DNA of 30,413 bases from a virus. Below the pieces are notes generated by a model that was not told where the DNA came from, made no database searches, and saw nothing but the letters and a program-made list of their open reading frames with translations. Where the stretch lies: IMG/VR virus record IMGVR_UViG_3300033182_000528, positions 1 to 30,413 of that record; one strand, written 5' to 3'. The position numbers and the translations under genes were made by a program. Below, piece by piece: positions 1,244 to 30,413 of the stretch. Position 1 is the stretch's first letter; every line of letters starts with the position of its first letter.

Positions 1244-1286
1244 CGGGGAGTGGCGCAGTCTGGTAGCGCACTTCGTTCGGGACGAA
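1244..1286 (+). tRNA. Truncated tRNA-Pro(CGG), 5' fragment only; prophage attachment junction
   Basis: The sequence matches the 5' half of a bacterial tRNA-Pro. It has acceptor strand CGGGGAG (1244-1250), a D-arm with paired GCGC/GCGC (1253-1256 and 1266-1269), anticodon stem CTTCG (1271-1275), loop TTCGGGA (1276-1282) with anticodon CGG (1278-1280), and the start of the 3' stem CGAA (1283-1286). The expected G at 1287 is A, and no variable loop, T-arm or acceptor 3' strand follows. Phage-type sequence begins here instead. tRNA anticodon loops are known integrase crossover sites. Usually the phage restores the 3' half at this side; here it does not. Confidence 0.8.
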
Positions 1287-1433
1287 ATCAAAGCCCCCTG
1301 ATTCCACACAGTTTCTTTAAATTACAATTACTTAGCAATGCACGGCAGTGTAGAACGCCACGTGAACATTGCCCATCGGGCAGTTATCGGGCGGAAATAG
1401 CTGTGGCGCAATCGTCGGGGAAAGGGGAATCCA

Positions 1434-1955
1434 ATGGCTGAGGTTTTTGTAATCAGCGACACGCACCTAGGTCACGACAATATTCTGACCTTTGAGCATG
1501 ACGGACAGCCACTCCGGCCCTTCAAATCGCTAACCGAAATGCACGTTGAAATCATCGAAAGGTGGAACCGCACAGTCTCTCCTGGAGACAAGGTTTATCA
1601 CCTGGGCGACGTGGCCTTTACGAAAGAAGGTCTGCACTTGCTCAAGATGATGAACGGCAAAAAGCGGTTAGTTCGGGGCAACCACGACCTATTCAAAACC
1701 AGCCTGTATTCCCAGTATTTCCAGGAGATTTACGGTGTCAGGCACATTAACGGGATATGGCTTACTCACGTCCCGATGCACGAAAACTCGATCAACGAAC
1801 CACGAGTAAAGATGAACATCCATGGTCATCTCCACGCCAACAAGATTGACCACCCCAAGTATTTCAACGCTTCGGTGGAGTGCATCGATTACACGCCGGT
1901 CTCTATCGACCAAATCTCCCCCATAAGCGACGGAGAAGATCATGGAACGGACTGA
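1434..1955 (+). CDS. Phage calcineurin-like metallophosphoesterase
   Basis: A 173-residue protein with all the motifs of a two-metal phosphoesterase: D9-x-H11 (SDTHLGH), G58-D59, GNHD at 82-85 and GHLH at 131-134. The substrate cannot be read from sequence; relatives hydrolyse nucleic acid or nucleotide phosphoesters. A GGGGAA ribosome-binding site lies just before the ATG. It is the first gene of a short plus-strand operon next to the attachment junction, oriented against the rest of the prophage. A second, larger metallophosphoesterase lies on the minus strand at 5031-6194. Confidence 0.85.
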   Translation: MAEVFVISDTHLGHDNILTFEHDGQPLRPFKSLTEMHVEIIERWNRTVSPGDKVYHLGDVAFTKEGLHLLKMMNGKKRLVRGNHDLFKTSLYSQYFQEIYGVRHINGIWLTHVPMHENSINEPRVKMNIHGHLHANKIDHPKYFNASVECIDYTPVSIDQISPISDGEDHGTD

Positions 1956-2259
1956 GTTTATGGCACACGTCTTCAAGACAATTGAGGCTCACCCTGATTG
2001 GCTACAAGACACCCTAACTATGGCCTCGGGTGCGGCAATGGGAAGAATGCGCCAGCGAATAGCAGAAAAGGATGTTGCGATGATGGGGGCGTTGATGCTG
2101 GCAAAAGATGGGCGATTAACCAAGGAGGTCCGGGATGCTGTGACAGAGAACATTCTTCCGGGTCTGGCACCATATGACACCGCCAGCCCAATAGAGAAAG
2201 CAATGCATGATGCGGCGCGCTCGGCCACATCAAACGAGACGGGACAGGAGCCCAAATGA
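1942..2259 (+). CDS. Hypothetical phage protein, 105 aa
   Basis: I do not recognise this protein. It overlaps the end of the metallophosphoesterase by 14 bases and has GGAG six bases before the ATG, so translation is probably coupled. The sequence looks mostly helical, methionine- and alanine-rich in the middle, with no membrane segment or metal motif. Its context suggests an accessory protein co-produced with the phosphoesterase. Confidence 0.65.
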   Translation: MERTEFMAHVFKTIEAHPDWLQDTLTMASGAAMGRMRQRIAEKDVAMMGALMLAKDGRLTKEVRDAVTENILPGLAPYDTASPIEKAMHDAARSATSNETGQEPK

Positions 2260-2332
2260 CCAGATCGGCAGATATCCGGGCAGTGTCGCGTGGTTATTCC
2301 CGTTTGCCATACGAGATTATCCCACACCTGAA

Positions 2333-2551
2333 TTACGCCTCACCATGCCCCCGAACCTGTGCCGCCCCGTCAACGGATGGTGGCCGGAGATTGGCAAAAC
2401 CGACGTTCGTCTTGTTCGCTTCCTTGATGAAATCGCGGACATACCGGTGCCAATCGTCATCGGTCATCTGCTTTCTGAGGCGTTTTGGAAAGGTTTTTTT
2501 GAGCGGCCAGAGGATGGACGGCTCAAGGTGGTCTGGATGGATTTCAAACAT
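2333..2551 (-). CDS. Possible small antisense gene, 72 aa
   Basis: On the minus strand, opposite the surrounding operon, an ATG at 2551 is preceded by a good Shine-Dalgarno (AGGAG, about six bases away). The predicted 72-residue protein has a normal mix of charged and aromatic residues, including the stretch MTDDDWHRYVRDF. The exactly opposed plus frame (running to 2599) is also open and looks protein-like. Base use at codon positions 1 and 3 does not separate the two. The ribosome-binding site favours the minus reading, but this is uncertain. No function is suggested. Confidence 0.4.
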   Translation of the reverse strand: MFEIHPDHLEPSILWPLKKTFPKRLRKQMTDDDWHRYVRDFIKEANKTNVGFANLRPPSVDGAAQVRGHGEA

Positions 2552-2612
2552 AGAGCGCTCCTATTCAGCGCTCGCCCTATCAACGGTTTAGCGACTTAGG
2601 AGGTCTGAGACA

Positions 2613-2834
2613 ATGCCAGAGCAATTGAGTGACGCCCAACTACGGGCGCTGAAATGGCTTAAGGAGCGGGGCGGTTCCGGTGTCATCAATCGTTACGGGC
2701 GGTTGCTGGCGGCAGGCGAGGTTGCCCGCCAATTCGACGCATCAACATGGCTGCGCCTTGCCGTAGCCGGTTACGTCCATTGTGCAGACTATCGAGTGAG
2801 CCTTTCCGCTGTCGGCTCAGATTGTGTCGAGTGA
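2613..2834 (+). CDS. Small winged-helix-like phage protein, 73 aa
   Basis: Preceded by an excellent ribosome-binding site (AGGAGG, about nine bases before ATG). The sequence begins with a helix (DAQLRALKWLKERGG) and continues with a pattern like small phage proteins: a conserved-looking RYGRLLAAGE, then STWLRL and GYV near a beta-hairpin. The layout suggests a winged helix, but this is an impression from the residue pattern. It is part of the plus-strand accessory operon. Confidence 0.7.
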   Translation: MPEQLSDAQLRALKWLKERGGSGVINRYGRLLAAGEVARQFDASTWLRLAVAGYVHCADYRVSLSAVGSDCVE

Positions 2835-2852
2835 ACCAGGAGATCGCGGGAA

Positions 2853-3185
2853 ATGATGAAGCTTTCAATATTTCATGACGACGAGAAGGTCTTAGTTGGG
2901 CTACCCCATTCAGAGGGCGGCGCTCAAATGATCGGAGATATCACCAGGGATTTTAGAAGCGCTATGGCAGAGGCCGAAAACTTGACCGCCCTGAAGAAAG
3001 AGCCAGTGCCAATGCGGATCACCTGCCCAGAGTGTGGGACGCTCCACATTGATGAAGGCGAGTTTGCGACAAAGCCACACCACACCCACGCCTGTCAGTC
3101 ATGTGGCCATGTGTGGAGACCGGCAATCGTGCCAACGGTCGGAGTCCAGTTTTTGCCGGGCTTCAAAAACAGTCCCGCAGACTAG
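2853..3185 (+). CDS. Zinc-ribbon phage protein, 110 aa
   Basis: The C-terminal half carries two CxxC knuckles, C58-P-E-C61 and C81-Q-S-C84, about 20 residues apart. Between them lies a GEFATKPHHTHAC segment, and the following HVWRPA is typical of small zinc-ribbon proteins common in phage genomes. Zinc binding and nucleic acid or protein contact are inferred. The N-terminal half is unrelated and helical. ATG at 2853 follows AGGAG; the second Met, one codon on, is equally possible. It is the best-recognised member of the plus-strand operon after the phosphoesterase. Confidence 0.8.
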   Translation: MMKLSIFHDDEKVLVGLPHSEGGAQMIGDITRDFRSAMAEAENLTALKKEPVPMRITCPECGTLHIDEGEFATKPHHTHACQSCGHVWRPAIVPTVGVQFLPGFKNSPAD

Positions 3186-3194
3186 GCCGAAATC

Positions 3195-3518
3195 ATGCCA
3201 GATATTACCCTGACGAGCGACGACGCGGTGACAAGTGACCTGATGAGAAAGGTTGTAGACGATGTGGGGGCCGCGATTGAAAGGACAGTCACCATAGCAC
3301 CCCTGCCTATCCCGGTCGTAGCAAGTGGGGGTAGCGTCGCTATCGGAATGATGGCCGCTTTGCTGGAACAACTCGCCGACGATCATGTGCCGGGCAGCAA
3401 ACCAGACCCCGAGTGCATTTTTCTGGCGGCGCTCATTATCGCGCGCATGGGGACACAGCATGACGACCCCATCGGACAGGCTTACCGAGATTTGGAAGCC
3501 TTAAAACCTGTCGAGTAA
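3195..3518 (+). CDS. Hypothetical phage protein, 107 aa
   Basis: Not recognised. The gene follows the zinc-ribbon gene by nine bases and continues the plus-strand operon. The middle has a hydrophobic stretch (PLPIPVVASGGSVAIGMMAALL, about 38-59) which could be buried or a weak membrane segment, and the rest is acidic. The last 83 bases are overlapped by an opposite-strand ORF (3436-3669), because the plus and minus operons converge here. Confidence 0.6.
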   Translation: MPDITLTSDDAVTSDLMRKVVDDVGAAIERTVTIAPLPIPVVASGGSVAIGMMAALLEQLADDHVPGSKPDPECIFLAALIIARMGTQHDDPIGQAYRDLEALKPVE

Positions 3519-3833: not shown

Positions 3834-3913
3834 TAATCACCGCCATAGATGTGGATTAAGACGGCCACCCCAATCAGAAGAATGAGAATGAACACGAATA
3901 AGAGTCCGTCCAT
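3833..3913 (-). CDS. 26-aa single-pass membrane peptide next to holin
   Basis: ATG at 3913 overlaps the holin stop (TAATG), so it is translationally coupled. The product is almost all membrane helix: MDGLL, then about 15 aliphatic residues, then a polar HIYGGD end. Its position right after the 3TM holin suggests a helper or regulator of lysis (an inference). It is too short for most gene callers, but the stop/start overlap and perfect hydrophobic profile make it credible. Confidence 0.5.
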   Translation of the reverse strand: MDGLLFVFILILLIGVAVLIHIYGGD

Positions 3914-4311
3914 TATTTGCCGCTCTTGCTGAATAGATTGGTGACGCCTTTAACGGCAGGTTTGACCCCGAAACTCGCGCTAAACGCTATAATTAAGAGT
4001 ATCCAGTATTTCTCCGGCACTTCGCTCTCAAGGATTTGAAACGCCGATTTAGTCCGCTCCACCAATTCGGGGATGTCTAACAGAACACCCAAAAAAAGCG
4101 TCACGAAGGGCGTGGAAATCATCACCGTGAACCATTCATCCTTCCAGGACTTAATAGAGCCCTCCGCCATTTTCTGTTCCCAGTTGGCGGTGGATTTAAT
4201 GGCTTCCATGTGGGCTTCATGCTTCGCCTTGCCGATTTCTCGTTTCTTGGCGATATATTCCTTGCCGATGCTAAATAGGCCCCCGGCGAGGGATGTGATG
4301 AGTGATATCAT
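3913..4311 (-). CDS. Holin of the 3TM (gene-transfer-agent release) type
   Basis: A 132-residue protein with a hydrophobic N-terminus (MISLITSLAGGLFSIG), a long charged helix, and two clear membrane segments near 80-100 (VMISTPFVTLFLGVLL) and 107-125 (WILLIIAFSASFGV). This matches the holins described as 3TM, GTA-release type. Holins form inner-membrane holes that let the endolysin reach the cell wall. It lies downstream of the endolysin-like gene and upstream of two tiny membrane peptides, a lysis cassette layout. The name rests on layout and recognised composition. Confidence 0.78.
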   Translation of the reverse strand: MISLITSLAGGLFSIGKEYIAKKREIGKAKHEAHMEAIKSTANWEQKMAEGSIKSWKDEWFTVMISTPFVTLFLGVLLDIPELVERTKSAFQILESEVPEKYWILLIIAFSASFGVKPAVKGVTNLFSKSGK

Positions 4312-4385
4312 TGCTTAAAATCCATTCTAGGGTCGTTTTTCGGGCCGCTGGTGCGTATCTCTGGTTTTTTAGGGTAGTGGAGTAC

Positions 4386-4414
4386 AAAACAAGAACAATC
4401 GCCCTCAGAAGGGC
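4386..4414 (-). terminator. Weak intrinsic terminator or attenuator after endolysin gene
   Basis: On the minus strand GCCCT-TCTG-AGGGC (4401-4414) forms a short GC-rich hairpin right after the endolysin stop. It is followed by a T-rich but interrupted run (4386-4400). The stem is only five pairs, so partial termination is the most that can be claimed. About 75 bases without any ORF follow before the holin start. Confidence 0.3.
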
Positions 4415-4828
4415 TTAAAATGCCCGATTAATTCCGTCCAAAAGCTGCTCTTGTGAGTAGGGCATTACACCGTTCTCGTGGTGGATGATCGCGGAGACCA
4501 TCGGGAGCGCGTATCTCATTTCCGTCACGTCAAACGCCTCACCGGGATCAAGGTGCATACAATCCGCCACGTGCTCTATATATGAGTCCGTCTCGTTCTC
4601 CACCGGGGGTGCCCAGCGGTTAATCATGTCCCGCACATTCCAGAGTTTGTGCTTCCGCTGGTAGGTCTGGAGGATTTTATGGATCGCCCTAATCCCCATT
4701 TCGGAGCTTTCGAACTGGCAGAACCTTTCTTCCCCGTTCGTCTGGGGGTATATCTCGCCGTCCCATAGGAAACGGTCAGAGTGTTCTATGTTGCCGGGGT
4801 TATTGTTTCTAATTCCACGGGGTGTCAT
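4415..4828 (-). CDS. Phage peptidoglycan hydrolase (structural protein P5-like endolysin)
   Basis: The N-terminus RGIRNNNPGNI and the later segments GIRAIHKIL, INRWAPPVEN and IIHHENG are the hallmarks of the lysozyme-like family often annotated as structural protein P5 or phage lytic transglycosylase. The 137-residue length fits the single catalytic domain; there is no separate wall-binding domain or signal peptide. It overlaps the upstream gene by four bases (ATGA) and lies upstream of the holin, so it is most likely the endolysin. A virion-bound muralytic role is also possible. Confidence 0.82.
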   Translation of the reverse strand: MTPRGIRNNNPGNIEHSDRFLWDGEIYPQTNGEERFCQFESSEMGIRAIHKILQTYQRKHKLWNVRDMINRWAPPVENETDSYIEHVADCMHLDPGEAFDVTEMRYALPMVSAIIHHENGVMPYSQEQLLDGINRAF

Positions 4829-7306: not shown

Positions 7307-8473
7307 CTACATATAACTAATGTTCACAGCGCCAGCGTCGAACGTGCCGCCTTCTATTCTGATTTGAGTAAGCTCTCCGCTGAGAGATTTTCTCCCAGAT
7401 CCAGAGCTGGAGGTCGGCTGGTTGGTGGATGCCATGCACCACATCGCGGTCCAGGTATGATCAGAACTGTCTTCAAGCGTAAGAATGACGGTCCCGGAAA
7501 TCAGGTCATTTCCATTGGTGGCTACATGCACCATGAAATCGTCGGTGTTGCCTGAATCCGTGCCTGCCGTGCTATCCCAATCAACGCCAACATACCCGGA
7601 GGTCTCAATGCCGCCGGAGTCTCCCAATAACACTTCAGCTTCAGCACCCGCTGAGAAAGACACACCCACAAACATAACAATGATCATCTTCGTGCCTGAG
7701 GGGATGCTGCTAAACGTAACGGATGTCCCAGACGTTGTGGCCTGCTCTGTGCCAAGCGTAAGACCGGCAGCATTGGCCCACTGAGGGTTAGCCCCCGCAC
7801 CTTGTGTTTGGAGTACCTGGCCAGACGTTCCGGGGGCAAGTACTGACCAAGCCGACCCACTGCGGTAAAGCACGTTTCCTTGCGTATTGCCTATTGCGGA
7901 GTCCAATAAGCTGGTAAGCGTCTCATAATTCGGATCAGTGCCATCTGATGCGAAAATTGTGTTGTCAGCACCCAGGGGTACGCGCTCATCTGCTGAAGCC
8001 CCTCTGCGAATTATATCGCCGCGTGTGGTCGTTGGAGTAGAAGACGGCTCGTTACTCACCGGGGAGAGAAGCTGGAAATTATCGGCAGTCGCCTCATAAG
8101 CGACGACATAAATACCACCCGCTTCTATATCATTCGCGACAAGAGCATGGTTGCGGTGCTTAACCACTGACTTGGCACCGATGGAATCCACGTTCAACGT
8201 AACCGCGCCCGTGTTCGTTCCGCCCGCTTCAAACGCGAACAATTGAGACTGTTCGTAAGCCGTCAAGGAAAGCCCGGAGGTGAGGGTAACCGTATCCGTA
8301 CCGCTGGAAATCTTCGCACCGCCAAGGAACTCCACCCAAGCCGAAATATCGGACATCATTTGACGGGCAGAATTATTCACCGTTGAGGGTGATTGGTTCT
8401 CCGCGAAGTTAATAGAACCCTGCGTTGCGTTGTTTCCGGGCGTCGTTGCGTCCCAATCATATACTGAAGCCAT
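7307..8473 (-). CDS. Tail fibre protein, 388 aa
   Basis: The N-terminal 60 residues (YDWDATTPGNNATQG...NFAENQSPSTVNNSARQMM) resemble the virion-attachment end of phage tail fibres. The middle has the fibre motif RGDIIRRGASADERVPLGAD and YRSGSAWSVLAPGTSGQVLQ, typical of repeating shaft units. The last 150 residues form a serine/threonine/glycine-rich beta domain likely to bind the host surface. It overlaps the upstream internal-protein gene by one base (TAATG). It is predicted to recognise the host; specificity cannot be read. Confidence 0.78.
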   Translation of the reverse strand: MASVYDWDATTPGNNATQGSINFAENQSPSTVNNSARQMMSDISAWVEFLGGAKISSGTDTVTLTSGLSLTAYEQSQLFAFEAGGTNTGAVTLNVDSIGAKSVVKHRNHALVANDIEAGGIYVVAYEATADNFQLLSPVSNEPSSTPTTTRGDIIRRGASADERVPLGADNTIFASDGTDPNYETLTSLLDSAIGNTQGNVLYRSGSAWSVLAPGTSGQVLQTQGAGANPQWANAAGLTLGTEQATTSGTSVTFSSIPSGTKMIIVMFVGVSFSAGAEAEVLLGDSGGIETSGYVGVDWDSTAGTDSGNTDDFMVHVATNGNDLISGTVILTLEDSSDHTWTAMWCMASTNQPTSSSGSGRKSLSGELTQIRIEGGTFDAGAVNISYM

Positions 8474-12751: not shown

Positions 12752-14208
12752 CTATGCCCCCGACCTTTCCACGTCACGTCCACGCCCTGTGCGTGATCAA
12801 ACCCGCCAGTGATATTTACGCGGACCCGGTGATAGCGGGCGTCCTCTCTTACGGGAGCATCGCCGCTTCCGTTCAGGGAGACCGCGCTGCCGAACGAAAC
12901 GGTGTCGGTGCCGATGTTTCTTCCGGCCATCTGGACCGTGGATGTTGCCGCCGATCCGTCAACGATTGGCCTGACCTTATTGATGAATGACCGGCGGCCG
13001 GGCAGAGGTTGAAATTCCGCCGTCTCTAAAGTGGCATCCAGGCCGGTGCCGGTAAAGTATGCGAGGTTGTTGCTTGTGTTGAACGCGGAAAGTAGGACCG
13101 AACCGCCAACCCAGGCCCGGCTGTCCAGGCTAAAGGCCAAAGAGTCAATCGACGATGAAACGGAATCAAGGCCGTCCAACGTGTAGCCGGTCGACAGGGA
13201 CCGTGAGATCAGTTGGTGCTGGAATGACGCCGTCGACCACTTGTTGTTTACCCAATCAAATATGATCAGTTTGTTTGGGGTTCCGGATGAATGACCGCTG
13301 CCGGGGTAACTCACAATATACAAGTGATTGATTGGATCGATTGCCGACGTGACCCGCGAGGCATACGCAGTGTCCAAGTCTTCCGCAAATGTCTTATCGA
13401 CCTTGTTCGCGCCGATCGGGGTGACTTTCGTTCCGTCTTCCAGAGCATAAAAGCCATCGTCCGACCAGAAGAATATCGTCCGGCCAAGTGCCGCAATTGA
13501 ACCAGTGACCTGAGTGCCGCGTGTCTGAGACACTTCGTTCGCCGTAAAAATCAAAGGGGTGCCAGCGTAGTCAAGGCGGAATATAGAGCGTTCCAAAAAC
13601 ACGATTCCGTATTCGCCGCCGACTATGCCCATCACCGCGCCGCCGTTGCCGACAAAGTCTTGGAAGTCTGACTGTGTTGTCTGCGACGCCGCCCACGTCT
13701 CAGCGTTATCCAGGCCGGACCAGCGGACCCGGTTCTGGTAAGCCGTGCCGCTCTCGACGAGATCCCCCAGAAAAACGAACCCGCGAACAATGGCAATGTG
13801 CCGCGCTCGAGGTGGCGTGCCTCCTAAAGCCGACCAACTTGAACTCGTGCCGAGCGTCCACTTCTGAGGCGCGTCGTCATAGTTGGTGGCGATCACGGTG
13901 TCGCCGAATTGCCCGAACCGCCAGACCGAGTCTTCGGCAGTCGTGAACCCGGTGTCTGTCGAGGTCCAGGCCGTATCGACTAGCTGATACAGATCAGTGT
14001 CGTCACCGGCAAAAACCGTGACCGAGCCGTCAGACGCCTGTCCCGCGCCGGTTCCTTGGCACCGGTTCGTGAGCGCCGTCGTGCTGTACGCTGACAGGGA
14101 CCCCAACTCACGATAGCCGACAGCCGTCGGGATAACCCCGTCGGCAACTGTAGCGCCGGGATTATTGAAGGCCGGTAAGTCTGGCAGATATTCGCCGAAC
14201 TGGATCAT
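12748..14208 (-). CDS. P22 gp10-like tail / packaged-DNA stabilisation protein, 486 aa
   Basis: A beta-rich protein whose repeated elements look like propeller blades: the start FGEYLPDLPAFNNPG, then AGDDTDLYQL, GQFGDTVIATNYDDAPQKW, ARHIAIVRGFVFLGD, WSDDGFYALEDGTKVTPIG and NHLYIVSYPG. This fits the hub family that closes the portal after packaging in P22-like phages. Length is similar to gp10. It follows the adaptor gene with an ATGA overlap, as expected for head-to-tail genes. Confidence 0.72.
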   Translation of the reverse strand: MIQFGEYLPDLPAFNNPGATVADGVIPTAVGYRELGSLSAYSTTALTNRCQGTGAGQASDGSVTVFAGDDTDLYQLVDTAWTSTDTGFTTAEDSVWRFGQFGDTVIATNYDDAPQKWTLGTSSSWSALGGTPPRARHIAIVRGFVFLGDLVESGTAYQNRVRWSGLDNAETWAASQTTQSDFQDFVGNGGAVMGIVGGEYGIVFLERSIFRLDYAGTPLIFTANEVSQTRGTQVTGSIAALGRTIFFWSDDGFYALEDGTKVTPIGANKVDKTFAEDLDTAYASRVTSAIDPINHLYIVSYPGSGHSSGTPNKLIIFDWVNNKWSTASFQHQLISRSLSTGYTLDGLDSVSSSIDSLAFSLDSRAWVGGSVLLSAFNTSNNLAYFTGTGLDATLETAEFQPLPGRRSFINKVRPIVDGSAATSTVQMAGRNIGTDTVSFGSAVSLNGSGDAPVREDARYHRVRVNITGGFDHAQGVDVTWKGRGHR

Positions 14209-14819
14209 GCGGCGGTTACCGTGAGAGGTGAACCACTCAACGCCTCGTCGTCGTCCTGATCCTGGGCTTGCTTAATTATCGCCTGATACTTGGATTCCCA
14301 GAGAGGGACACGCTCGTCGTTTTGGATGAACGGCTCAGCCTCAACAAGAGACCCGAACAGTAATGCCTGGGGAATATCATCGGTGATAAAGTTCGTCTCG
14401 TTTGTGGTCGCGGCCAGGACATCGAGTTTCTTATAAAACACGCCCTTGATTGCATAGTCGCTATCCGGGAACGGCCCAAAGATAAAGTTCCCCGCCTCGC
14501 GAGCGTAGAACTCGGGCTTACCGTCCGCCGACCGGGTCGGGTAGTTCTCATAAATGAACGACAGGTCTTTTCGTTGCAGCCCCTGCGTCGGCGACGTGTC
14601 GATGTACATGTATTTCATCTCGAGGTAACCGGTCGGAACCGAAATAACCCCGGAAGATGTCGTGGCCGACAACGCCGTCTCCATCGCACGAATACGAAGG
14701 TCGCGGTATATCCGGTTCTCCGCCATCGTCATGAAGTCTGCAATCTGCGTAGTGAGGTCGGAGCGATCCAACCAGTCCGCAATAGCCGCTTTGATGTTCG
14801 TGTAATTATTCAGCGCCAA
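14205..14819 (-). CDS. Head-tail adaptor protein (SU10/P22 gp4 type), 204 aa
   Basis: The N-terminus (YTNIKAAIADWLDRSDLTTQIADFMTMAENRIYRDLRIRAME) and later segments (PTGYLEMKYMYID, YAREAGNFIFGPFPDSDYAIKGVFYKKL) match the adaptor family of short-tailed phages that joins portal to tail. The start is TTG at 14819, supported by AAGGA eight bases upstream; no ATG fits. The gene overlaps the glycosyltransferase by 14 bases. Confidence 0.78.
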   Translation of the reverse strand: MALNNYTNIKAAIADWLDRSDLTTQIADFMTMAENRIYRDLRIRAMETALSATTSSGVISVPTGYLEMKYMYIDTSPTQGLQRKDLSFIYENYPTRSADGKPEFYAREAGNFIFGPFPDSDYAIKGVFYKKLDVLAATTNETNFITDDIPQALLFGSLVEAEPFIQNDERVPLWESKYQAIIKQAQDQDDDEALSGSPLTVTAA

Positions 14820-15423
14820 CGCTCAATTCCTTCGAACTTATGTGCCGGACCTCTTTTGAGAGGTCGTGGTCAACAAAAACCTCGACGCCTGCGTTGTGCC
14901 ACTTGATGCAGCAAAACCCATCGTCGATGACATACTCGTCATTTTCAGGATCAAACCCGATCACAAACCAAGGCCGATCTATTTTCTCAAACGCCTCGCG
15001 CCTACAAAGAAGCGCACCAAATCCACAGGACGTAACCTGTTCTAAACCCTCGCTCTGATCCGTCGTCGGGATGTATCCGCCAACATCGGACCTGTAGGCC
15101 GTGAACTGCTCCGGCGTGTTCCGCATCCGGTAGTTCGCGCAGACAACGTCTTTGTCCCTTGCCAGTAGCCGAACGATTGTGTCCTTCGGAAACCTCATAT
15201 CGTCGTCGAACCACATGAAATGTGTCGCGCCGGATTCCAGGGCCGCCGTTGCTAGGTGGTCTCTGTTTCGCGGCAGGATCGACCCCTGCACATTCCAGAT
15301 AGAAACCGGTATTTTTGCTGTGGCCGTGTATGCCATGCAGAGCGCCAGGTCATAGCCGAAAGACGCCTGCCATAAACCGCCTGACGGTATCAGGACGGCG
15401 ACACGGGGTTGTGGGGTTGTCAC
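14806..15423 (-). CDS. Phage glycosyltransferase-like protein, 205 aa
   Basis: Starts with an IPSGG nucleotide-binding-like beta strand. It continues with ILPRNRDHL, a metal-binding candidate FDDDMRFP (about 71-78), CANYRMR, CGFGALLCRREAFEKI and DDGFCCIKWHNAGVEVFVD. This is the outline of a compact GT-A (family 2-like) sugar transferase. The start is GTG at 15423 with a purine-rich Shine-Dalgarno upstream. It lies between capsid/decoration genes and the adaptor, so it may modify virion proteins or the host surface; which is not known. Confidence 0.75.
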   Translation of the reverse strand: MTTPQPRVAVLIPSGGLWQASFGYDLALCMAYTATAKIPVSIWNVQGSILPRNRDHLATAALESGATHFMWFDDDMRFPKDTIVRLLARDKDVVCANYRMRNTPEQFTAYRSDVGGYIPTTDQSEGLEQVTSCGFGALLCRREAFEKIDRPWFVIGFDPENDEYVIDDGFCCIKWHNAGVEVFVDHDLSKEVRHISSKELSVGAE

Positions 15424-24281: not shown

Positions 24282-25607
24282 TCAAACAAATTGTCCAGAG
24301 TTGGGATACTCAATCTTTTGCGCCCACGGCTTACGATACGCGCCAAACGACGACATACCTTCCCGGTAACCGACCGCCAAATATCTGAAAGCGTCCGCAA
24401 AGTGCGAGTTATCATCATGAAGCGGAAGCCCCGAACTCTCTTTAACCCTATAATGCCGTAGCGCCTTCAATCCCTCGGCGCAGTTCTCAGCATCAAACCA
24501 ACAACGCGGCAATATCGCCCGAACCGCCTCAATCCCTTCCGCCACTTTCCGCATCGGAACGATCGTCGGCATAATCCCCAGCTGCCGCAAAATATCCGAC
24601 CGCCTCTGAGCCGAAGCGGCTAAAACCCGAGAATCGGTATCATGGGGGAATAAATGATCACCGTAGGAATAACCCCTATCAAAAGCACGCTGCTGCAAAA
24701 CCTGTACATAATGCGCCAAACCCTCCCCCGACGCTTGATAGCAGTCGATGATCCGTATCGAGGCACCGGCAGACTCCTGCCAGAAAAAACACGACGTTTT
24801 ATCCCGCACCCCAAGATCCCAGGCCGTATTTACCAGCATCGTCTCGTCGTGCGGAACGTTGCCAATCCGCTCTTCAGCCTCGGCCTTGCTCAACAACTCG
24901 CCGTAATACGCCCCGGTAATATGAGCCCCAAAATCGCAGAGCAGCTCTTGCCTAAATTCATTGTCCGACATTTGCGACCGGAGCTCGTCGAGCTCAGTCT
25001 CAGACAAAACACCCGTCTTGTCCGCCGGGAATATGCAGGCATACCAATCCGGATTGCCCGCCTTCACCTCATCAAGCGCCTGGTCGTAAACGGCCTTAAA
25101 CGCGTCCTCACCCTTCGGCGTGCCTATCCAGGTGCATTTGCCCCGCCGGTCAGCCAAGGCAGGCCTCACAATCTGAGGAAACACCTTCGCGGGGATGTCG
25201 GCGTATTCATCAAAAACGACGGCGTCGAGGTAAAGGCCGCGAATCTGCTCACTGGACTCGTTGGAGCCGGACAACAAATGGATCGTGACCTTGTTATTCT
25301 TCCCAAGCGGAAATTCGCATCGCAGTTTGGCGGCGTTGTATTTGACGCCAGGGAAGACCGACGTGGCTTGCTTTAAATACTCAAAAGCGACCCGCTCAAC
25401 TTGTGAGAACGTCGGCGCTATAAAGGCCCCTTGGGGGTTCTTGTGGGGGCACTCCACTAAAGCTCGAACGAGCCAGTGAATTGCCATAAACGTCTTCCCA
25501 AAACGGCGGTGACAAATCGCAACATTCCAGCGCCGCGCGTTCTCGTGAAACTGCTTTTGCAGCGGTCGCGGGGTGTAGTCGATCGTCAGTCTTTTTATTT
25601 CGGCCAT
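24282..25607 (-). CDS. terL: Terminase large subunit, 441 aa
   Basis: The packaging motor. The ATPase part has an arginine-rich Walker A, C32-HRRFGK-T39, and Walker B ending VVFDE (D133-E134), then a coupling TWIGTPKGED segment. The nuclease part shows WDLGVRDKTSC, PHDTDSR and HDDNSHFADAFRYL with the acidic residues expected for an RNase H-like fold. The start is ATG at 25607, inside the end of a 42-aa gene; TTG at 25640 is possible but less likely given that overlap. Confidence 0.9.
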   Translation of the reverse strand: MAEIKRLTIDYTPRPLQKQFHENARRWNVAICHRRFGKTFMAIHWLVRALVECPHKNPQGAFIAPTFSQVERVAFEYLKQATSVFPGVKYNAAKLRCEFPLGKNNKVTIHLLSGSNESSEQIRGLYLDAVVFDEYADIPAKVFPQIVRPALADRRGKCTWIGTPKGEDAFKAVYDQALDEVKAGNPDWYACIFPADKTGVLSETELDELRSQMSDNEFRQELLCDFGAHITGAYYGELLSKAEAEERIGNVPHDETMLVNTAWDLGVRDKTSCFFWQESAGASIRIIDCYQASGEGLAHYVQVLQQRAFDRGYSYGDHLFPHDTDSRVLAASAQRRSDILRQLGIMPTIVPMRKVAEGIEAVRAILPRCWFDAENCAEGLKALRHYRVKESSGLPLHDDNSHFADAFRYLAVGYREGMSSFGAYRKPWAQKIEYPNSGQFV

Positions 25608-25723
25608 TCGATGTGGTGCCGATGTCCGCAACGCACGCAAGCGCCCAACGCGGTGTTGTCAGGCTGCCTATCCTCAATCGGTTTATAGGTGTGGCCTATC
25701 AGCCAACAGAGCCAATTGAACAT
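25595..25723 (-). CDS. 42-aa zinc-knuckle microprotein (DUF1660-like)
   Basis: An ORF starts at ATG 25723, three bases after the upstream stop, and ends TAA at 25595, overlapping the terL start by 13 bases. It begins MFNWLCWLIGHTYKPIE and ends ACVRCGHRHHIEWPK: a GH after a cysteine, then CxxCGH, the pattern of the small DUF1660-type prophage proteins. Cysteines and histidines could bind one zinc. It is too short for most gene callers. Tight packing between neighbours supports it. Confidence 0.65.
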   Translation of the reverse strand: MFNWLCWLIGHTYKPIEDRQPDNTALGACVRCGHRHHIEWPK

Positions 25724-27010: not shown

Positions 27011-27418
27011 CTAAAATACTCTCAGACTTTCCTTCATCAATGGTAGCGGACAGTACGACCCTTCGACAATGCAATCCACGACCATCGTCAATCCTCGAGA
27101 TCCGAACCGTCCGATCATCACAGTTGACCAAACCATATAACGCTTGACCTCCGGAGGCTCTCGCTCGTCATCGACAACTCGGTTGTGCCGTCCGCCGGGC
27201 GCATCCAACTCGAGATAGTTCACGCCCTTCTGGTCAACGTCCGATCGAATATACTTCACCGCCTTGCGGATCATGAACGCCGATTCCAACAACACCGAAT
27301 TGAGTTTCTTGCTCTCAGCCCACTCGAGCAGCGGTTCGGGCTTGGCTCTCAGCCGCGTCTCGTCGGTCGCGAACTGATACGGTTCCTGTGATACTTCGCT
27401 TAAATCGAGGTCAGACAT
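27011..27418 (-). CDS. Paralogue B of an unknown early-operon pair, 135 aa
   Basis: ATG at 27418 has GAGG six bases upstream and overlaps the preceding stop by eight bases; the longer frame to 27523 is rejected for that reason. Its pattern LLEWAESKKLNS...IRKAVKYIRSD and EPPEVKRYMVWSTVMIGRFGSRG matches the gene at 28158-28592 along its length. The fold appears helical. It lies upstream of terS, a position often used by late-gene regulators, but no DNA-binding motif is certain. Confidence 0.7.
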   Translation of the reverse strand: MSDLDLSEVSQEPYQFATDETRLRAKPEPLLEWAESKKLNSVLLESAFMIRKAVKYIRSDVDQKGVNYLELDAPGGRHNRVVDDEREPPEVKRYMVWSTVMIGRFGSRGLTMVVDCIVEGSYCPLPLMKESLRVF

Positions 27419-28765: not shown

Positions 28766-29025
28766 GCCGCCCTCCGTATCGCGTTCTCGAACTCGCCATT
28801 GGCCCACCCCTTACTCGCAACGTCCTTTTTCCATTCGTTAATCCTCCAGTCATCCAGGGGAGGAATGTTGGGTTTCTGTCCCCGCTTCAGGGCGTCCGTG
28901 GCGTGGCGCACAAGGAACCTCTTGGCCTCCACAAACCACATTTCCTCATACGGTCGCGTTCCGTATTTCGCCAGATAATTCCGGGCGTACACCCGCGCCT
29001 CCTGTGCCATTTCGGACTGGTTCAT
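28762..29025 (-). CDS. Hypothetical early protein, 87 aa
   Basis: Overlaps neighbours at both ends by ATGA, with AAAGGTG before the start. Helical and basic, with YARNYLAKYGTRPYEEMWFVEAKRFLVRHATDALKRGQKP, then a tryptophan-containing DDWRINEWKKD. Not recognised; it immediately follows the DUF1376 gene. Confidence 0.65.
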   Translation of the reverse strand: MNQSEMAQEARVYARNYLAKYGTRPYEEMWFVEAKRFLVRHATDALKRGQKPNIPPLDDWRINEWKKDVASKGWANGEFENAIRRAA

Positions 29026-29828
29026 GCCGATTCACCTTTCGGAAAAAGTTTCTCAAACGCCCAATCCTCTCGGCGCTTCCAGGCCTCCAACACCTCATTG
29101 GCGTATGGCCACCCGGCGGTTTTTGCCAACTCCCGCGCACCCCGCTCCGCCTTCAGCTTTGTGAACTCCTCTTTGCCTTCAGGGGTTCCGGTATGCCCCA
29201 GCGCCGCAGCCTGCCGACACGCGGTCACCAGATACGCCACCCGCTTCCCCAGCGGCGGCGGGTCGCCACGCCCCACCACCTCGAATCCGTTGAAGAGGTC
29301 TTCAGGGGAGAATGACGCCAGGGGTGCCCGGTACAACGCCCCAGGGTTCTCGTTCCCTTCCAAAATCCACCCCTTGATTTCAGAAAAATCTGGAGGGGGC
29401 GGAGCCCCTATATCTTTTATCTGGTTATCTAGTTCCCTAGTTCGCATGTTCTGGGAACATGCTTCTGCATCGGCGGTTTCGTTATTTTTCAACGTCTTAG
29501 CACGCTCCAATGCCCATCTTTTCTCCGCTTTTTCTCGCGCATTCAGCGACTTTTCAGCCGCTTTTCGGAGAGTTTTCGTCGTTTTATCGTTTTTATAGTA
29601 CCCGTCCTCGACATAAATTTTACCCATTTCGATGAGTTCTTTTTTGATTGTTCGGAACTTCCGGGTGGAGCAATTACAGATGTGGGCGCACATCCTATCG
29701 TCGTCTGGGAGGGCCCCATCAAGGTCGTATAATTTCGTGATGAGGGTCACATATACCCCCCTCTGTTCGAGGGAAAGATTTTGAGTCCCTACTAGCCAAG
29801 CCTCTACATCCCATTGAGCAAATTTCAT
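29022..29828 (-). CDS. DUF1376-type phage replication protein, 268 aa
   Basis: The first 100 residues (MKFAQWDVEAWLVGTQNLSLEQRGVYVTLITKLYDLDGALPDDDRM) are the winged-helix-like DUF1376 domain found in phage replication modules. A basic helical linker with KSLNAREKAEKRWALERAK follows, then an acidic hinge and a C-terminal part of unknown fold. Initiation or replisome-loading help is inferred from family context. It overlaps the DnaA-like gene as TGATG, so the two are made together. Confidence 0.78.
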   Translation of the reverse strand: MKFAQWDVEAWLVGTQNLSLEQRGVYVTLITKLYDLDGALPDDDRMCAHICNCSTRKFRTIKKELIEMGKIYVEDGYYKNDKTTKTLRKAAEKSLNAREKAEKRWALERAKTLKNNETADAEACSQNMRTRELDNQIKDIGAPPPPDFSEIKGWILEGNENPGALYRAPLASFSPEDLFNGFEVVGRGDPPPLGKRVAYLVTACRQAAALGHTGTPEGKEEFTKLKAERGARELAKTAGWPYANEVLEAWKRREDWAFEKLFPKGESA

Positions 29829-30193
29829 CAGATAAACCTCAGTTGAAGACGGCGAACGCGGGCGGAAAATACCGGGTCGTTCTCCATGTGTGTCTCACAG
29901 GCAGTTATTCCGTAAGAAATCGTGGTGTGGTCCCTGCCTCCTACAAATCGTCCTATCTCCGGCAAGCTCTTGCCGGTGCAGTTACGGGCCAGCAGATAAA
30001 ACGCTTGGCGCGGGCGGGCGACGTTACGGCCCCTCCGGCTTGATTTGAGATCCCTTTCAGAAACCTCAAACTCCTTGGAGACAGCGTTTAAAATGGCGTT
30101 GAGTTTTTTGGCAAATGGGCGCACCTCAACCCGCACACGTGGCGCGGGGATACCTAGATAGTGAGCCACGTCGGATTCAGTAAACAGCGTCAC
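29828..30193 (-). CDS. Stand-alone DnaA domain IV DNA-binding protein, 121 aa
   Basis: The whole C-terminal 75 residues match DnaA domain IV: ILNAVSKEFEVSERDLKSSRR, then PRQAFYLLAR, SLPEIGRFVGGRDHTTI. The DnaA-box contact signature GGRDHTT is intact, but the following His of DnaA is Tyr (ISYG). No ATPase domain (III) is present. The start is GTG at 30193, coupled to the preceding stop by GTGA. It could direct phage origin recognition or compete for host DnaA boxes; both are inferences. Confidence 0.85.
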   Translation of the reverse strand: MTLFTESDVAHYLGIPAPRVRVEVRPFAKKLNAILNAVSKEFEVSERDLKSSRRGRNVARPRQAFYLLARNCTGKSLPEIGRFVGGRDHTTISYGITACETHMENDPVFSARVRRLQLRFI

Positions 30194-30327
30194 TCTTCAC
30201 TCTCCTCAATAAGCTTTATTAGCCGCCCATATCTTGAATGGCGGCTCTCTGATTCATTTGCTAATTCCCACCCTTCCGGTATGGGGTCGTTTAGTCCTAT
30301 CCATTGGTAAGTGCCTTCGGGGTTCAT
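30190..30327 (-). CDS. Small conserved-type phage protein, 45 aa
   Basis: ATG at 30327 overlaps the methyltransferase stop (ATGA) and its own stop overlaps the DnaA-like start (GTGA). The sequence reads MNPEGTYQWIGLNDPIPEGW, then a helix with RYGRLIKLIEE. The PIPEGW...YGRLI pattern recurs in tiny phage proteins of unknown role. It is shorter than common ORF cutoffs, but both overlaps support it. Confidence 0.65.
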   Translation of the reverse strand: MNPEGTYQWIGLNDPIPEGWELANESESRHSRYGRLIKLIEESEE

Positions 30328-30413
30328 GATTCTAGGATTGCCCTTCCAATGAGTTCTGGGATTTGGGGGACGACGGCATTTCCGAGTCCTTTAAGTCTGT
30401 CCACCCTTCGGGG
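30324..30413 (-). CDS. C-terminal end of a phage DNA cytosine methyltransferase (partial)
   Basis: Only the last 29 residues are inside the window. They include RLKGLGNAVVPQIPELIGRA, the well-known C-terminal signature of C5 DNA methyltransferases (the LGNAVVPQ motif), followed by ILES and TGA. The gene continues beyond the right edge. Target sequence cannot be known. It may protect phage DNA from host restriction. Confidence 0.78.
   Translation of the reverse strand, partial: PRRVDRLKGLGNAVVPQIPELIGRAILES

Follow-up and report, generated by a model that had tools for sequence, protein, structure and literature searches.

Results

Host flank and the interrupted tRNA gene

The window, by which we mean the whole 30,413-base stretch of DNA that was analysed, is a linear record from a virus collection, a metagenomic fragment that ends short of the second prophage junction. 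The DNA to the left of the junction that it does contain (~1.3 kb) belongs to the host, a marine alphaproteobacterium, and the best family-level match of this flank has ~77% identity. The left flank of the host attachment site (attB) is occupied by a polyprenyl synthetase gene (168–1172, + strand; PF00348, E=2.9e-75), the product of which shows 93% amino acid identity to that of L002, which on this measure is the nearest of the host relatives. Its nearest relatives are found in Rhodospirillaceae/Rhodospirillales MAGs, and in most of these the synthetase gene has a complete tRNA-Pro(CGG) after it, often within ~100 bp. This arrangement corresponds to the empty site, and the synteny of the two genes is conserved in the window.

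Behind the synthetase gene, a motif search located the ancestral host promoter of tRNA-Pro(CGG), TTGCCG-17-TATAAA (1188–1216, + strand), which now serves a displaced 5' half only; the motif TTGCC(N)-17-TATAA precedes the intact gene in five sister loci (L006, L008, L010, L012 and L013). The half itself (1244–1286, + strand) comprises the 5' acceptor strand, the D arm, the anticodon loop and most of the 3' strand of the anticodon stem, and holds the att core. Positions 1244–1285 match the 5' halves of tRNA-Pro(CGG) of sister genomes with best identities of 95–98% over 41–42 nt, and both the D arm and the anticodon loop TTCGGGA are intact. A 42-nt match at a conserved syntenic place puts the tRNA identity far beyond chance. 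The original prediction, which described a 5' part intact through the anticodon loop and still provided with its promoter, was thus correct on both points.

The identity to the tRNA ends after CGAA (1283–1286), in the anticodon stem, where the host gene would continue as ...CGAAG GGGTC. The putative crossover core is the anticodon stem-loop CTTCG-TTCGGGA-CGAA (1271–1286, + strand): the identity ends alike in the attP sequences of L104 and L098 and in the attL sequences of L002, L237 and L208, and the exact strand-exchange points would fall within these positions. To the right lies the phage P' arm of attL (1287–1433), which holds no tRNA 3' half. ARAGORN and the Rfam tRNA model found no tRNA over the whole window, and a search of the whole window for a T-arm, a tRNA 3' half or a second 5' half likewise returned none, in agreement with the claim that the sequence diverges right after CGAA and that no T-arm follows. 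Elements that restore the gene in the classical way carry a 3' half straight after the crossover; here there is none from 1287 on or elsewhere in the window. At the distal end, the displaced piece of the tRNA comes from its 5' side (1244–1286), as in islands of the 5'-fragment type.

Phage part of the window

From the crossover to the end of the record (1287–30413) the window consists of prophage DNA, which is broken off before an integrase gene (int) and attR are reached. The phage genes to the right of the junction include those for terminase, portal, major head protein and endolysin, and with the host synthetase gene on the left and the 5' half at 1244–1286 they confirm the proposed prophage junction inside tRNA-Pro(CGG). 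Between attL and the lysis genes there is a block of small + strand genes (1434–3518), the first of them coding for a calcineurin-like phosphoesterase; the block is missing at the corresponding place in L104 and L140. The lysis genes (3913–4828, - strand) are on the att side, as in L104 and L140; they consist of a holin-like gene (3913–4311, - strand), so called from its position and size alone, and an endolysin-like gene (4415–4828) assigned by PHROG 873. Amid the tail and head genes there is a glycosyltransferase-like gene (14806–15423) with a weak match to Anp1, under the curated cut-off.

The gene for the terminase large subunit (24282–25640, - strand) ties the window to the L068 and L073 phages. 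The replication end (29022–30413, - strand) contains a primosomal-like gene (29022–29828, - strand), a gene for a DnaA-domain protein (29828–30193, - strand) and, at the end of the record (30413, - strand), the C-terminus only of a methyltransferase-like gene. The DnaA-domain protein, at 121 amino acids, has the DNA-binding domain (Bac_DnaA_C, E=1e-22) with no space for the ATPase part, and homologues of it are present in L139 and L140. The left end of the phage DNA is without an integrase, which is consistent with an int at the right end, beyond the record.

attP in related viral contigs

An exact search of 2.9 million viral contigs with the first 28 nt of the tRNA returned nine stretches, namely one complete tRNA-Pro(GGG) and eight stand-alone 5' halves of tRNA-Pro(CGG) (L098 and L100–L106), in which the identity to the tRNA stops at GGGACG. 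A ninth contig with such a half, L142, was reached through its integrase. In 9/9 contigs the stop codon of a tyrosine integrase lies 11 bp ahead of the 5' half. These integrases have 335 residues where complete, and in L104 the one directly upstream of the half contains PF00589. Arm-type repeats (17/19 nt identical) are found on both sides of the L104 core, TGTACACACCGTGTACATT inside the 3' end of int and TGTACACACTGTGTTCATT beyond the core. Judged by sequence, the layout of integrase and 5' half together with the arm repeats is that of an attP with the 5' half as its tRNA portion, and the attP sites of these relatives have 41 nt in common with the tRNA. A related contig carries a damaged half (L143:3799–3839), with 8/41 nt unlike the other phages and the loop TTTGGGA (a UGG-like anticodon), although its integrase is nonetheless 84% identical; evidently a usable half is not kept by every such phage. 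Named phage records were also considered as carriers of the 5' half and were set aside, as most of what matched the tRNA half in them was already annotated as a tRNA gene.

Two of the nine contigs, L139 and L140 (~20 kb each), are collinear with both ends of the window. With its replication end they have in common the genes at 27011, 29022 and 29828 and the methyltransferase-like C-terminus at 30413, and with its left-end tail genes those at 7307 and 11118 and, in L139, also the one at 8473. Their int and attP with the 5' half sit between these two matching ends, ~6 kb beyond the position that corresponds to the right end of the window. A tRNA gene was sought in both contigs and none was found.

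The P' arm of the window is unlike any of the known P' arms: an exact search for it in other viral contigs gave no match. A 26-mer search for the tRNA half with the window's own anticodon stem met complete tRNAs only, in unrelated viral contigs. Arm-type repeats were sought at 1180–1500 of the window, where a weak 11-nt pair was all that appeared. The dissimilar P' arm means that the integrase of the window's phage may be only a distant relative of the known 5'-half integrases.

In the structural genes, the closest phages are L068 and L073, with ~65–81% amino acid identity in head and packaging proteins. Their attP is of the classical kind, with 48 nt that match the 3' half of tRNA-Glu(TTC) exactly (L093:5479–5526 and L094:19629–19676; G002 and G007), and their integrase is of a different type. 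This integrase was rejected as a model for the window's phage, given the tRNA-Glu 3' half and the position of int on the side of the lysis genes, where the window has none. That structural relatives use a tRNA-Glu 3' half indicates a probable exchange of integration modules among these phages. In the genome of the host relative G001, an integrase fragment (G001:C8:53426–53593) that contains a TAG in frame lies ~2 kb from the host tRNA-Glu(TTC) (L097:10415–10492) and is perhaps the remnant of an L068-like prophage.

Both junctions in host relatives

Two related bacterial genomes, L002 and L237, show the locus in the order 5' half, element, complete tRNA-Pro(CGG). In L002 the 5' half is at 13020 and the complete tRNA at 15288; the element contains a truncated integrase (48% identical to that of L104 over 101 residues), and an arm repeat, TAGGCCAA(T/C)TGGCCTAAAACGA, is present near each of its ends. 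In L237 both arms resemble those of L104: behind the 5' half at 3357 comes a P' arm with 75% identity over 138 bp, and ahead of the complete tRNA (11089) stands a P arm with 93% identity over 75 bp. A third genome, L208, shows a 5' half and its adjoining phage P' arm where one of its contigs ends.

The ancestral promoter is missing ahead of the rebuilt gene in both L002 and L237, its place being taken by element DNA, and scans for consensus promoters upstream of the rebuilt tRNAs gave nothing above chance level, all matches being weak or on the wrong strand. The gene next after the rebuilt tRNA is of the DctP type in both. In L002 the tRNA gene is now 4.3 kb from the synthetase gene that it normally follows. 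The same locus contains a 91-nt direct repeat (12971–13061 versus 15239–15329, 85%) that takes in DNA upstream of both tRNA copies, and this extension of the repeat suggests two successive insertions at one tRNA, the left copy marking a similar, earlier event.

Conservation of the half and the integrase tree

Among five phages, variable sites number 1/41 in the half versus 17/60 upstream and 28/120 downstream of it; the corresponding Fisher p-values (0.0005 and 0.0017) serve as guides only, the counts coming from few, related sequences. The conserved stretch extends past the anticodon-arm core to the D arm and the acceptor strand, and low variation there is in keeping with a half that has to go on forming a functional tRNA. 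In a tree of 19 integrases with an identifiable adjoining tRNA, one branch (support 97/94) splits six integrases of the same-strand 5' layout from 13 classical convergent ones, a topology that fits a single switch of the tRNA half carried. The integrase fragment of L002 (L136) forms a long branch.

Discussion

These observations are best explained by a phage-borne tRNA 5' half that is swapped in at the anticodon loop, the gene being rebuilt at attR; we put the probability of this explanation at roughly 0.86. A temperate, podovirus-like phage would integrate by means of a tyrosine integrase at the anticodon loop of the host tRNA-Pro(CGG). Its attP would consist of phage DNA upstream, followed by the tRNA 5' half joined to ATCAAAGCCCCC. 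Recombination between attB and such an attP, with the crossover in the anticodon loop, would leave the host's own 5' half and its promoter stranded at attL (positions 1244–1286 of the window), and would join the phage 5' half to the host 3' half at attR, producing a complete tRNA-Pro(CGG) downstream of int and in the same orientation. The rebuilt gene would then be served by a phage or integrase-side promoter. From the collinear relatives we infer that the window's own phage has such an attP and attR, and its rebuilt gene would likewise be transcribed from phage DNA.

The original prediction had left open whether the gene was broken or was put together again at the opposite end with a 5' half brought by the phage. 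The attP halves in the phages and the loci of L002 and L237 with their complete tRNAs make it most likely that the gene of the window was rebuilt at attR from the phage 5' half and not lost, so that the second of these options is upheld and nothing supports the first. Plain loss, in which the prophage broke tRNA-Pro(CGG) and a tRNA-Pro(UGG) reads CCG by wobble, seems to us the least probable of the explanations considered. Genes for tRNA-Pro(UGG) and tRNA-Pro(GGG) are indeed present in the nearest genome used for comparison, G001. However, the complete tRNA-Pro(CGG) is kept in 2/2 relatives in which both ends of the element are visible, and the gene is present in most relatives, so the suggestion that its loss could be tolerated through wobble is not needed. 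The further statement that the gene shows no visible repair is true only inside the window, given that the record ends before the other junction.

The main rival is tRNA-dependent lysogeny, a real mechanism in mycobacteriophages (PMC10865867), in which phage and host share a short core only, the gene is really destroyed, and a complete phage-encoded tRNA-Pro compensates. An attL without a 3' half is what it would produce, and several kilobases of phage DNA that could hold such a gene lie outside the record. Yet the 29 kb of phage DNA yielded no tRNA gene with ARAGORN, and the phages that match the window at both of its ends carry 41 nt of the tRNA as a 5' half in place of a short core, with no tRNA gene that could be found, which makes this alternative improbable. 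An assembly artefact that fused a contig of the host with one of free phage, as could happen in a metagenomic fragment, is more improbable still: the junction sits where attL and attP junctions occur naturally in relatives, and L104 and L140 likewise have their lysis genes on the att side. Moreover, an overlap chimera at this place would itself require a phage-borne tRNA 5' half, and so would lead to the same conclusion about attP. The swap of the 5' half with rebuilding at attR accordingly remains our preferred reading.

Phage 16-3 of Sinorhizobium meliloti reportedly uses the alphaproteobacterial tRNA-Pro(CGG), with a minimal attB at the anticodon arm. Its integrase is distantly similar to those described here (24% identity over 78% of the query; record AP-16-3). 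The prediction that supply of a 5' half would be a less usual arrangement agrees with the Islander database, where 5' tDNA fragments occur in 159/3,919 mapped islands and anticodon-centred sites are one recognised class (PMC4383910). In those islands, as here, the element supplies the 5' part anew and a 5' fragment stays behind; unlike the catalogued islands, the present case is a phage group at tRNA-Pro(CGG) of Rhodospirillales-like bacteria, for which attP sequences are known. Archaeal integrases of the pTN3 type have the same 5' arrangement, and a review calls a similar situation seldom met in bacteria (PMC8371274). The archaeal integrase gene, however, is split on integration, whereas the int of these bacterial phages stays whole and ends 11 bp before the half. 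Same-strand pairs in which the integrase comes first, as in our contigs, are the SIT class of an earlier survey, in which SIT and OD together made up <8% of 1,273 integrase-tRNA pairs (PMC2951348); that survey dealt with orientation only, and this phage group is not described there. The mycobacteriophage system, with its core of ~10 bp and a whole phage tRNA that compensates, also splits the host tRNA and leaves it unrepaired at the junction seen, but the relatives of the window's phage differ from it in having a 41-nt half and no tRNA gene.

Textbook phages that target tRNA genes restore the 3' half, and the host promoter stays in charge. The marine alphaproteobacterial phage group described here does the reverse. 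The swap of a 5' half is a known but minority arrangement, of which this group is a further case, and for annotation it means that a tRNA cut at one end of a prophage should be followed by a look for a rebuilt copy at the other end. Related integrases with opposite att layouts offer a clean comparison for the evolution of the choice of tRNA half, and the same comparison bears on whether the 5' layout puts the host tRNA under phage control. Since the ancestral promoter stays behind at attL and 11 bp separate the end of int from the half, transcription from the integrase region is possible. We therefore raise, tentatively and as something that we hold to be rather unlikely at present, the idea that the sole tRNA-Pro(CGG) of the lysogen is transcribed from phage integrase-region promoters, so that the prophage controls a host tRNA. 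If this is true, loss of the prophage other than by precise excision would harm the host, and repeated insertions, of which the L002 locus gives a hint, would place the gene under one new promoter after another.
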